This document shows positions 25,706 to 33,392 of a stretch of DNA of 64,000 bases, one piece after another (the stretch's first letter is position 1; every line of letters starts with the position of its first letter). Position numbers and translations under genes: made by a program. The stretch spans positions 558,001 through 622,000 of the forward strand of contig NZ_BRPL01000002.1 in NCBI RefSeq assembly GCF_027923585.1, written 5' to 3'. The notes under the pieces are model-generated. The model worked only from the letters and a program-made list of their open reading frames with translations, did no database searches and had not been told where the DNA came from. The stretch comes from Philodulcilactobacillus myokonensis. Lineage in GTDB: Bacteria > Bacillota > Bacilli > Lactobacillales > Lactobacillaceae.

Positions 25706-25744
25706 AAAAGATCCAATGCTTATTTTCAGCATTTGGATCTTTTA
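25706..25744. terminator. Second, symmetrical terminator between convergent genes
   Basis: AAAAGATCCAA-TGCT pairs with AGCA-TTTGGATCTTTT with one bulged base; A-run and T-run on either side make it bidirectional. It serves the minus-strand gene whose stop codon it touches and backs up the rpsI terminator. Confidence 0.85.
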
Positions 25745-26008
25745 CTTATTGTCATTATCCTTAGTTGTTTTTTTACTTTTACTACTTTTGGCGGCTTTAA
25801 CAACCCTTAATTTTTTAGAACTAATAACAACTTTATTATGATATTTATCAATTACAGCTGGACTAGTTGATTTAAATGAAATAAGGAATGAGTGTGTGTA
25901 TCCCTTTAAAATTGTGCCATTGTAATTTGTTTTTCCTAATTTAAAAGCAACTTTATCTCCAACATTAAATTTTGCTTGAAGAGGACTAACTTTTTTACTT
26001 CTTGTCAA
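25742..26008 (-). CDS. Small basic protein, DUF2187/KOW-like
   Basis: 88 residues. Residues about 13-70 form a small beta-rich domain starting FNVGDKVAFKLGKTNYNGTI and ending ISSKKLRVV, resembling DUF2187 (YkvS-like) proteins, which look like KOW/SH3-fold domains. The last 20 residues are a low-complexity Lys/Ser/Asp tail, and the first ten are basic. It starts at a TTG with GGGAG ten bases upstream; the nearby ATG is in another frame that stops quickly. A lone minus-strand gene between two plus-strand units. Function unknown; nucleic-acid binding is only an inference from fold and charge. Confidence 0.7.
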   Translation of the reverse strand: MTRSKKVSPLQAKFNVGDKVAFKLGKTNYNGTILKGYTHSFLISFKSTSPAVIDKYHNKVVISSKKLRVVKAAKSSKSKKTTKDNDNK

Positions 26009-26135: not shown

Positions 26136-26714
26136 ATGAATTTTTTAGAAAAACGAATTCAAAAGGATGGAAGAATTTTATCAGATAATACTTTAAAGGT
26201 TGATCAATTTTTTAATCATCAAATTGATCCTCAATTAATGAAGAAGGTTGGACAATCATTTGCTGATTATTTTAAAAATGATCAAATTACTAAAATTTTA
26301 ACAATTGAATCATCTGGGATTGCACCGGCTTTAATGACTGGATTATACTTAAATGTTCCGGTGATTTTTGCTCGTAAACATAAAAGCGTTATTCAAAAAA
26401 ATAATATCTACACTGCTAATGTCTATTCATTTACTAAAAAAACTAATAATACAATTAGTGTTAATAAGGATTTTATTAATTCAAATGACCGTATCCTTAT
26501 GATTGATGATTTTTTAGCCAATGGATCTGCCATTAGCGGAATGATTGATATTATATCAAAAGCTAATGCAAACATTGGTGGTGCTGGGGTCGCAATTGAA
26601 AAGAAATTCCAAAAGGGACATCAGTATATTCAAAAAAACGGAATTAAATTCTTAGCACTTGCCAGTATTGCATCTTTAGATAATGGTAAGATAGCTTTTG
26701 CCCACTCAAAATAA
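26136..26714 (+). CDS. xpt: Xanthine phosphoribosyltransferase
   Basis: Salvages xanthine to XMP using PRPP. 192 residues, usual length. The PRPP-binding motif RILMIDDFLANGSA is at about residues 124-137, and the N-terminus MNFLEKRIQKDGRI matches Xpt. Ribosome binding site AAAGGAGCG. I see no purine riboswitch in the upstream 120 bp, unlike in Bacillus, where xpt is riboswitch-controlled. A -10-like TATGAT lies about 30-40 bp upstream. A PurK-like gene follows after 27 bp. Confidence 0.94.
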   Translation: MNFLEKRIQKDGRILSDNTLKVDQFFNHQIDPQLMKKVGQSFADYFKNDQITKILTIESSGIAPALMTGLYLNVPVIFARKHKSVIQKNNIYTANVYSFTKKTNNTISVNKDFINSNDRILMIDDFLANGSAISGMIDIISKANANIGGAGVAIEKKFQKGHQYIQKNGIKFLALASIASLDNGKIAFAHSK

Positions 26715-26741: not shown

Positions 26742-27872
26742 TTGAATTTGATTAATAAAGCTTTACAACCTGGAGATACAATTGGAATAATTGGTGAAAG
26801 CATTGGGAATATTCATTTGATTATGGAAGCTAAACAATTGGGATTTTATGTTGGCATTTATACGCCAATTAAAATTTATCATAATCAATTAGCTGATTTT
26901 TGTATTATTGGTGATTTGGGTGACAAACAAAAATTAAAAGTATTTGCTAAAAAATGCGATATTGTTACCTATTCTTCAGCTAATATATCATCAAATACAA
27001 TTAAATATATGGAACAGTATACAAATGTTCCACAACATTCAACAATGTTAGACATGATTCAAGATCGATTGATAAAACAATCATTTTTTGATCAAATTAA
27101 TGTAAATACGGCCCCTTACGAAACAGTAGTTAATTTGAATGATTTATATCATGCTATTAATTCAATTGGATATCCAGCAATTTTAAGGCCAATTCAACGC
27201 GATTTTAATCATGGTAAGCAACTATTGATAAAAAATCAATTGGACATTGCTAAGGCTGATATTTTACTGAATTATGGTACATATGTTTTAGAATCTTATA
27301 TTCCCCATAACAAAACATTTTCTGTTATTTCAGCAAATAATAGTTCTAATCATCAGTCTGTATCGTTTCCGATTATTCAAAATGAAATTGTCAATGGTAA
27401 AATTCAAACAGCATTTTCACCAACCACTGTTGATCCCTTAATCACTGATGAATTAAAGCGGATTGCACGAAAAATAACCAATAACATTCAATATGATGGA
27501 ATTATAGAAATATCATTAATTTTGGGATCCAACGATAATATCTATGTTCATAATGTTAATCCCTTCCTTTCAACTTCTAGTTTTATTTTTGATCATGCTA
27601 ACATTAATGAATTTCAAATGTACTTGCGTGCTATTTCAGGGATGCCATTAACAAAAATTAAATTATCTAAACCAACGATTTTACAATCTTTTAATCAAAA
27701 TCAATGGAGAATTTTAAAAAAACAATGGCCATTTCCAAACAATTGGCAGTTTATTTTTTACAATCGGATTGATCAAAACCTAAAAAATGTTCAAGGCCAT
27801 ATTTTGATTGAGTCAAATTCTTCCGTTAAAAATGTTTTAAAGGATATCAAAAATACTAAAGCATGGGATTAA
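26742..27872 (+). CDS. Divergent PurK-like ATP-grasp protein
   Basis: 376 residues that align end to end with N5-carboxyaminoimidazole ribonucleotide synthase (PurK): an N-terminal Rossmann-like domain (GDTIGIIGESIG), a central ATP-grasp domain and the C-terminal ISGMPL block. Most family signatures are changed. GGGQLG is ESIGNI; TYEFEN is TYSSAN; the glycine-rich TGGYDGKGQ loop is RDFNHGKQ; the metal-site APRPHNSGH is NPFLSTSSF. It therefore probably lacks CAIR-synthase activity, or uses another substrate. No frameshift or internal stop, so it appears to be maintained. Starts at TTG 26742 with AAGGG upstream. In lactobacilli a second PurK-like gene often lies by pcrA. Confidence 0.75.
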   Translation: MNLINKALQPGDTIGIIGESIGNIHLIMEAKQLGFYVGIYTPIKIYHNQLADFCIIGDLGDKQKLKVFAKKCDIVTYSSANISSNTIKYMEQYTNVPQHSTMLDMIQDRLIKQSFFDQINVNTAPYETVVNLNDLYHAINSIGYPAILRPIQRDFNHGKQLLIKNQLDIAKADILLNYGTYVLESYIPHNKTFSVISANNSSNHQSVSFPIIQNEIVNGKIQTAFSPTTVDPLITDELKRIARKITNNIQYDGIIEISLILGSNDNIYVHNVNPFLSTSSFIFDHANINEFQMYLRAISGMPLTKIKLSKPTILQSFNQNQWRILKKQWPFPNNWQFIFYNRIDQNLKNVQGHILIESNSSVKNVLKDIKNTKAWD

Positions 27873-27927: not shown

Positions 27928-27965
27928 TACAATGTATAATTATTTAGAGAGGAATGGAGTTTTAC

Positions 27966-32260
<4,295 letters not shown>

Positions 32261-32276
32261 TGGGAGGAACGATCCT

Positions 32277-33392
32277 TTGAAAAAGCTAAAATTAATTTTA
32301 GCAGTAGCATTTAGTTCATTACTATTAGCTGCTTGTGGAAATTTGAATGGAATGTTATCAGGCGGTAGTAAATCTTCAAGTGCTACTACCCAATTAACTG
32401 GTCAAGCTAATCATGGCGATTACCAAAGTGTTATCAAAAATGGTCGCTATTTAACTAGTAAGTCACGTGGCGTTAATATTCAACAAAATGATAATCAATT
32501 TAATTTGAAAAGTTTTGAAAATGGACTTTTAGATGTATCTAAAAAGCAATTCCCAACTAATAAATATATTTTCCAAGAAGGACAATATATTTCGACTAAT
32601 GAAGCTTATAAGTGGTTGGGACGAAAGAGTAAGAGTAATCCCCAAGGATTAAACCCATCTGGGAAAGATACGAAAGTTCCATTATATTTACAACAATTAG
32701 ATGAACAAGATTTCTTAGTTCAAAATGGTAATTCTCTTAAATTAAAAGGGATGACCGTTGGATTAGGAATTAATTCTGTTTATTATTACACTAAAGAAAA
32801 ATATGGTTCCACTTATCAGATGAATTTGAATGATGAAAAAATTAAACAAATTGGCAAAGCAATGGCTAGCCAAATTTTAAAACGGTTAAGGTCTAATTCT
32901 AAATTAAAGAATATTCCAATTGTAATTGCGTTATATAAACAAGCTCCAGATGATAGCTTAGTTGGTGGTAATTTCTTTGCTTATTCTTCTAATAATGGTT
33001 CGAATATCAATAGCTGGAATTCAATTAATGAAAAGAACTACGTCTTTCCAATTCAATCCGGCTCTAAGGGTCCTAATAATAATGACCAAAGTGAATTTAC
33101 CAACTTCAAAAATGATGTCCAATCATTCTTTCCAAATTTAAATGGTGTAACTGCTCAAGCACATTATGTTGATGGATCACTTAGTGGGATGCACATTTCA
33201 ATTACGACTCAGTTTTATAGTCAAACCGAAATTACTAGCTTTACTCAATATTTGAAGACTGCGGCTCAGAAATACTTACCTAAAAATATTCCAATTGATA
33301 TCAGTGTTAATTCAAGTGAAGGAACCGAAAGTTTCTTGTCAAGAAGTTCCAGTAGTAATAGTTTTACTTATCATGTTTTCAATAGTTATTAA
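32277..33392 (+). CDS. camS: CamS-family lipoprotein (sex pheromone cAM373 precursor type)
   Basis: 371-residue secreted lipoprotein. The signal peptide ends with the lipobox LLAAC (Cys at about 20), so the mature protein is anchored to the outer face of the membrane. The family was named for the enterococcal pheromone cAM373 cut from its signal peptide; here the hydrophobic part is AVAFSSLLLA, so no such pheromone is implied. The native role of the lipoprotein body is unknown. Starts at TTG with GGGAGG. The ligA-camS-gatC order is conserved in Firmicutes. Confidence 0.9.
   Translation: MKKLKLILAVAFSSLLLAACGNLNGMLSGGSKSSSATTQLTGQANHGDYQSVIKNGRYLTSKSRGVNIQQNDNQFNLKSFENGLLDVSKKQFPTNKYIFQEGQYISTNEAYKWLGRKSKSNPQGLNPSGKDTKVPLYLQQLDEQDFLVQNGNSLKLKGMTVGLGINSVYYYTKEKYGSTYQMNLNDEKIKQIGKAMASQILKRLRSNSKLKNIPIVIALYKQAPDDSLVGGNFFAYSSNNGSNINSWNSINEKNYVFPIQSGSKGPNNNDQSEFTNFKNDVQSFFPNLNGVTAQAHYVDGSLSGMHISITTQFYSQTEITSFTQYLKTAAQKYLPKNIPIDISVNSSEGTESFLSRSSSSNSFTYHVFNSY

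Follow-up and report, generated by a model that had tools for sequence, protein, structure and literature searches.

Between the xpt and pcrA genes of Philodulcilactobacillus myokonensis lies a gene for a protein that resembles PurK from end to end and departs from it at most of the positions that mark the PurK active site. The question was where such a protein comes from and for what it is kept. The window analysed was a 64,000-nucleotide stretch (contig NZ_BRPL01000002.1, positions 558,001 to 622,000 of the forward strand). The frame at 26742..27872 (+ strand; TTG start; 376 aa) was open along its whole length, and its product is referred to below as PKL (PurK-like ATP-grasp protein). Upstream, xpt, encoding xanthine phosphoribosyltransferase (26136..26714, +), was assigned by NCBIfam (271.8 bits, cut-off 177) and synteny, and ended 27 bases before PKL. 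Downstream, after a gap of 81 bases, were pcrA, encoding a DNA helicase (27954..30212, +; NCBIfam 1024 bits, cut-off 911; conserved downstream neighbour), ligA, encoding an NAD-dependent DNA ligase (30230..32260, +; NCBIfam match and conserved neighbour), and a conserved neighbour placed by synteny as a camS-like lipoprotein gene (32277..33392, +). The last ORF gave no NCBIfam match at 1e-20, and the name camS is our assumption.

Pfam domains in PKL were preATP-grasp (residues 13-107) and ATP-grasp (residues 115-274). An AlphaFold2 model, computed from the window's protein and 52 relatives, had a mean pLDDT of 90.5 and a pTM of 0.87. The solved structures nearest to it were PurKs (Foldseek, 3v4s, E 2.2e-37, TM 0.90), and VIA-align superposed the model on PurK with Z 42.6 and rmsd 2.7 over 371 aligned residues at 23% identity. 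PKL is thus predicted to carry the three-domain PurK ATP-grasp fold end to end, and the original prediction of an intact PurK-scaffold frame was borne out by the open frame, the domains and the model. PKL shares its predicted fold, domain order and tree position with PurK (PDB 3v4s and 3r5h; PurKs of Enterococcus and Listeria purE-purK-purB operons). Unlike PurK, it has no purE partner at the locus and scores under all NCBIfam PurK cut-offs: the best model matched residues 6-375 with 197 bits where 375 are required, and TIGR01161 gave 118 bits (cut-off 318). The superfold is also common to PurT and other ATP-grasp enzymes, but the PurT models gave 72-76 bits (lowest 71.7, cut-off 502) against cut-offs of 339-502, which sets PKL outside PurT.

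Conservation was scored against 22 intact PurKs from Lactobacillaceae, other Lactobacillales, Listeria and Staphylococcus, over 37 motif columns at least 90% conserved among them and 78 other conserved columns. The motif columns spanned GGGQLG, YEFEN, two Lys, GGYDGxGQ, the hinge and ribose Glu, both metal-binding Glu, NExAPRPHNSGH and RKMGH. On this list of positions, which we drew up ourselves with the E. coli enzyme as guide, the window's PKL retained 9/37 motif columns versus 37/78 other conserved columns (Fisher p 0.025). In a leave-one-out control, 37/37 motif columns were kept by 21 of the 22 intact PurKs and 35 by the remaining one.

Each of these motifs was altered in the window, unlike in PurK. 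Residues 18-23 (GESIGN; 26793..26810, +) stood at the site of GGGQLG, residues 77-81 (YSSAN; 26970..26984, +) at the site of YEFEN, and residues 149-160 (RPIQRDFNHGKQ; 27186..27221, +) at the site of the ATP-covering loop K-T-x-x-G-G-Y-D-G-x-G-Q. Ser258 (27513..27515, +) occupied the site of the first metal-binding Glu. Residues 270-281 (HNVNPFLSTSSF; 27549..27584, +) lay at the site of N-E-x-A-P-R-P-H-N-S-G-H, with Asn271 in place of the second metal-binding Glu; both Glu were present in 22/22 intact PurKs. At the C-terminal RKMGH site (residues 349-353; 27786..27800, +) GH alone was kept. The PurK forms of GGYDGxGQ, NExAPRPHNSGH and RKMGH were therefore all absent from the window's copy. We take the Glu pair to correspond in numbering and role to E226 and E238 of E. 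coli PurK, and NExAPRPHNSGH and RKMGH to be AIR-site and active-site motifs. The adenosine-side positions, presumably K120, E153 and E161 in E. coli numbering, were Arg149, Glu184 and Thr192 in the window and mostly Lys, Glu and Glu or Asp in its clade. Gln113 at the K80 position and Thr192 at the E161 position are adenosine-side losses, and because residues on that side have gone too, adenine-nucleotide binding by the window's own copy seems doubtful. This copy ranked among the more eroded PKL members (Q113, R149, T192, S258, N271).

The same comparison was extended to 65 PKL rows (62 distinct sequences), of which 15 belonged to subclade A, a grade made up of a 14-row clade and L162, and 50 to subclade B. 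Median motif columns kept were 15/37 in subclade A and 12/37 in subclade B. The second metal Glu was absent in 64/65 rows, 46 of which had Arg or Lys instead, and the first was absent in 56/65 and kept in nine, eight of which were among the 15 subclade-A rows. The Arg of APRPHNSGH was gone in 65/65, and the Gly-rich ATP-covering loop was missing in the rows displayed in the alignment. Retained were the Lys at the K120 position (60/65), the Glu at the E153 position (64/65) and, at the E161 position, Glu in 50 rows and Asp in at least 11. The original prediction had held that the nucleotide-, metal- and substrate-site motifs are all altered; this description suits the window's copy better than the family, as these Lys and Glu counts show. 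Family-wide, most of the adenosine half of the site is preserved and most of the metal, loop and AIR parts are lost. PKL derives from PurK and has most likely lost the PurK reaction.

New residues were also conserved in the clade: a Pro after the Lys at the K120 position in 64/65 rows (Thr in PurK), Tyr251 in 64/65, Tyr181, and Phe283 in subclade B, all placed by sequence in or near the old pocket. These conserved residues, together with the retained adenosine-side positions and the strong selection described below, are what a still active enzyme would account for, namely a ligase of the ATP-grasp type whose remodelled pocket takes another substrate, with an unusual or absent need for metal. 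That account is the main rival, and we consider it unlikely. It must accommodate a second metal Glu gone in nearly every row, often to Arg or Lys, a first Glu gone in most, and the missing Gly-rich loop; to our knowledge, ATP-grasp ligases use acidic metal ligands. The original prediction had left open another reaction or a non-catalytic role. The latter is better supported, since 64/65 clade rows lack the second metal-binding Glu.

Whether PKL is merely a purK in decay was addressed through its rate of change. Pairwise dN/dS was computed by the Nei-Gojobori method for pairs among 80 named loci (the best 80 of 140) with 0.1 < dS < 1.2; pairs overlap, and fewer were available for genes other than PKL. 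The median for PKL was 0.022 and the maximum 0.098 (34 pairs, related genera), beside 0.023 for xpt, 0.025 for ligA, 0.028 for camS and 0.012 for pcrA. PKL is under strong purifying selection in related genera, in agreement with the original prediction that the gene is maintained and with no relaxed selection seen in the family. The ratio of PKL to pcrA distance was 2.09 for the window (16 pairs) versus 2.14 across genera (120 pairs; 5-95% range 1.55-2.71); the window's copy thus keeps the family's pace, and no extra relaxation was seen in it. A slowly decaying relic without function would explain the lost motifs, the internal stops in two PKL matches among the matches listed (G200 and G119), the very long branches of three rows in the tree (L155, L159 and L173) and the absence of the gene from one genus (g37), in which 10/10 sampled genomes had no PurK-like match of either lineage. 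It would not explain a dN/dS of about 0.02, like that of xpt and ligA, an uninterrupted frame of 379-393 aa in 80/80 named loci (the best 80 of 140), a conserved signature of its own, or retention in lineages without PurE. The relic reading is very improbable and is already contradicted for the PKL family. In genus g37, xpt was present in 9 of the 10 sampled genomes.

Independence from PurE was examined in 41 genomes, chosen because they had a PKL match among those listed and no standard PurK; three were under 90% complete, one was G200, and PurK-less genomes whose PKL match was not among the matches listed fall outside the set. Absence of standard PurK was read from best E values of 1e-11 to 2e-62; genomes with PurK gave 3e-86 or better. 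By PF00731 (AIRC domain) profile search, standard PurE was absent in 41/41 of these chosen genomes: 36 gave no match, and in the other five the profile hit only 249-293 aa ORFs, and these weakly (E 5.5e-16 to 2.1e-13); we take these ORFs to be LarB. All four positive controls with purK were found (E 5e-62 to 1.4e-61). PKL is therefore present where a standard PurE could not use the product of the old reaction. That PKL is a divergent PurK and still produces N5-CAIR, which would account for its fold and overall PurK similarity, is scarcely credible: the score lies far under every PurK cut-off, the AIR, metal and loop motifs are lost, the protein occurs where no standard PurE was found, and the window's own genome holds a standard purE-purK pair. 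That pair had been foreseen in the original prediction as something to look for, and was found elsewhere in the genome within a canonical purE-purK-purC set (L002) whose PurK scored 535 bits on the PurK model.

The origin of PKL was traced in a 77-protein tree (IQ-TREE, LG+C20), rooted on one S. aureus row. All 45 PKL rows in it formed one clade (support 100/100), and a branch with support 99/97 joined PKL with PurKs of Enterococcus, Listeria and other families. The PurKs of Lactobacillaceae purE-purK-purC operons (clade 100/99) and that of S. aureus fell apart from the PKL side, so the PurK tree proposed earlier places PKL outside the lineage of the resident enzyme. Gene order agreed with this split among intact PurKs, nine on the PKL side being in the order purE-purK-purB and thirteen on the other side in the order purE-purK-purC. 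The resident PurK and PKL belong to the same protein family (25% identity), but the resident belongs to the other lineage and keeps 37/37 motif columns. A recent duplication of the resident purK is not supported, and in place of the paralogue suggested earlier, the purB synteny of relatives indicates an original purK locus. Subclade-A PKL genes share a purB neighbour with the purK of purE-purK-purB operons, and purB lay directly 3' of PKL in 14/15 subclade-A loci. In Secundilactobacillus (L049, 5364-5891) xpt and PKL flanked a gene for a DUF5698/DUF2179 protein, and in another family, f2 (L180, 2755-3312), such a gene stood between xpt and purK; a protein of this type presumably also lies near purE in B. 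subtilis. Because tree position, purB synteny and the placement of this protein agree, PKL looks like the old purK, and the combined comparison suggests that it is the original gene in its old place, descended from a purE-purK-purB operon.

Genes for PurK without purE in the stretch were also found in other families (11 orphans: L180-L183, L186-L190 and L192 of family f2, and L199 of family f9). All 11 were eroded, with 17-28/37 motif columns and 59-68/78 other columns kept, while the 30 PurKs with an adjacent purE outside the PKL clade all kept 35-37/37 motif columns. Outside the PKL clade, an adjacent purE thus predicts an intact site. The orphans resemble PKL in their context, with purB next in 10/11 and xpt near in 6/11, and in having motif columns eroded ahead of the rest. 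They differ in being less eroded, with Glu at each metal position in 8 of the 10 counted. PurE was missing in 6/6 f2 genomes whose sole PurK is an orphan; in those with a second PurK, four of f2 and the one of f9, it was present. The fraction of motif columns kept was below that of other columns in 75/75 degenerate rows (10 orphans, 15 subclade A and 50 subclade B); the motifs of the 10 orphans were already known when these rows were put in a group of their own, which does not hold for the 65 PKL rows. Forcing PKL and ten orphans into one clade cost 19.9 log units (p-AU 0.053); a single origin is therefore not rejected, and separate origins of the degenerate PurKs are not claimed. Whether there was one origin or several, the motif columns are lost first and the rest later. 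Three orphans were checked against the NCBI PurK cut-off of 375 bits: L181 (485) and L186 (495) passed and may be annotated as working enzymes, and L199 (362) failed. Since less eroded orphans can pass (two of the three checked), genome-scale models may wrongly credit genomes that lack PurE with the PurK step.

A match to the window's PKL, ordinary PurK matches included, was found in 232/251 Lactobacillaceae genomes, and the closest match outside the window, among the matches listed, had 45% identity. The scan of named genomes covered the best 80 of 140 loci, all with Lactobacillaceae titles, and is no test of reach beyond that family. The gene order within it was fixed as (riboswitch)-xpt-(permease)-PKL-(purB)-pcrA-ligA, and the position of PKL beside xpt and pcrA, taken from the window in the original prediction, was upheld by synteny in relatives. 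Among the best 80 of 140 loci, xpt lay 5' of PKL in 72/80, and no more than 150 bases separated the two in 55 of these 72. Three of the other eight stretches start less than 440 bases from PKL, and five show 6 kb without xpt. In the same best 80 of 140, pcrA lay 3' in 79/80, the remaining stretch ending there. A purine riboswitch preceded xpt in 6/23 loci scanned, 21 of them PKL loci (L102, L109, L111, L148, L160 and L162). A xanthine/uracil-family permease lay between xpt and PKL by Pfam in L102 and L160, and by reading in L107, L148, L149, L150 and L162. In relatives, PKL thus shares an apparent purine-salvage operon of the form (riboswitch)-xpt-(permease)-PKL-(purB). Of the xpt/permease/purB set the window keeps xpt alone. 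Candidates in its own genome lie outside the window (four Lyase_1 and two permease matches), and purB or a permease beside PKL was thereby ruled out. No purine riboswitch was found ahead of the window's xpt at the Rfam gathering score. A promoter scan around PKL gave 16 hits versus 18.0 in shuffles, which is no excess, and the sole terminator-like palindrome found sits between rpsI and xpt. Co-occurrence of Xpt and PKL was uninformative, as Xpt occurs in 244/251 genomes; one genome (G204) carries PKL without detected xpt, so that Xpt cannot be the sole partner.

The constancy of pcrA, the steadiest neighbour in the best 80 of 140 loci, could instead point to a nucleotide sensor or partner acting outside purine salvage, for example on the functions of downstream pcrA and ligA. 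We hold this to be improbable: purB directly follows PKL in nearly all subclade-A loci, the riboswitch-xpt-permease-PKL arrangement at some loci is the mark of a purine operon, and the pcrA-ligA-camS block may be merely an old neighbour. In four Pediococcus loci (L099, L100, L101 and L105), unlike the others, no ligA match was seen between pcrA and camS. A mobile or plasmid-borne gene was also considered and rejected, as matches in 53 plasmid records were all below 60% identity. Among the ten listed, nine hits were to divergent PurK or to unannotated stretches; the tenth was an L. fermentum record with the usual xpt-pcrA block. That record (L004; CP033372.1, L. fermentum DR9 'plasmid', 760 kb) carries an xpt-PKL-pcrA-ligA-camS block with pcrA matched in three separate pieces, and may be a fragment of the chromosome or reflect a sequencing problem.

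Taken with the loss of the metal site and the purine-salvage context, PKL would best be read as a pseudoenzyme that descends from PurK and is retained because it serves purine salvage in a non-catalytic way, a proposal to which we give an even chance. We infer both its catalytic inactivity and its role from sequence. Its ancestor would have stood in a purE-purK-purB operon of the order. Once purE had gone from there, the pathway would have been served by another purE-purK-purC set or by no set at all, so that selection for N5-CAIR synthesis ended and selection on the PKL protein persisted. What remained would be the full ATP-grasp fold and, in the family, most of the adenosine half; the metal pair and the AIR site would have disappeared, and the metal site would often be occupied by basic residues. 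PKL might then act by binding: within purine salvage and interconversion it could be a scaffold or an allosteric partner, and many members might respond to adenine nucleotides independently of metal and pass this response to Xpt, a permease or PurB. We infer in the same way the order of events at the locus, the lack of activity, the nucleotide binding, the partner and the effect.

Precedents for PurK contacts exist. According to Gedeon 2023b (FEBS J), as cited in PMC10912719, PurK is an interaction hub of the E. coli purine enzymes, and adenylate and guanylate charge reportedly fall when its contacts are perturbed. A study of Pectobacterium describes a PurK effect on virulence that is not common to a purE mutant (PMC13028927). 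Because of these precedents, a PKL kept for its contacts could lose catalysis and yet remain. A wider version is more tentative, possible rather than probable: PurK at the Lactobacillales purB/xpt locus may have had an old second, non-catalytic function, such as a nucleotide-responsive scaffold gating salvage flux, and purE-less purKs would therefore shed the active site, perhaps repeatedly, yet stay selected, PKL being a PurK pseudoenzyme family that regulates purine salvage. If the pseudoenzyme reading is right, a conserved pseudoenzyme family would be added to one of the best-studied pathways. The catalytic and binding roles of PurK would have been separated naturally, and bacterial purine-enzyme assemblies would become testable in lactobacilli. 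A literature search of open-licence PMC papers found no earlier description of the PKL family; a PurK_2 of L. casei, which may belong to either PurK lineage, is listed in PMC6201924.

Upstream of xpt, the window holds an 88-aa Lys-rich ORF (25742-26008, - strand), convergent with rpsI and divergent from xpt, that gave no Pfam match at 0.001. Two RNA elements were recorded above the Rfam gathering score, an L17 downstream element (RF01708; 21250-21308, +) and an L13 leader (RF00555; 24717-24770, +).
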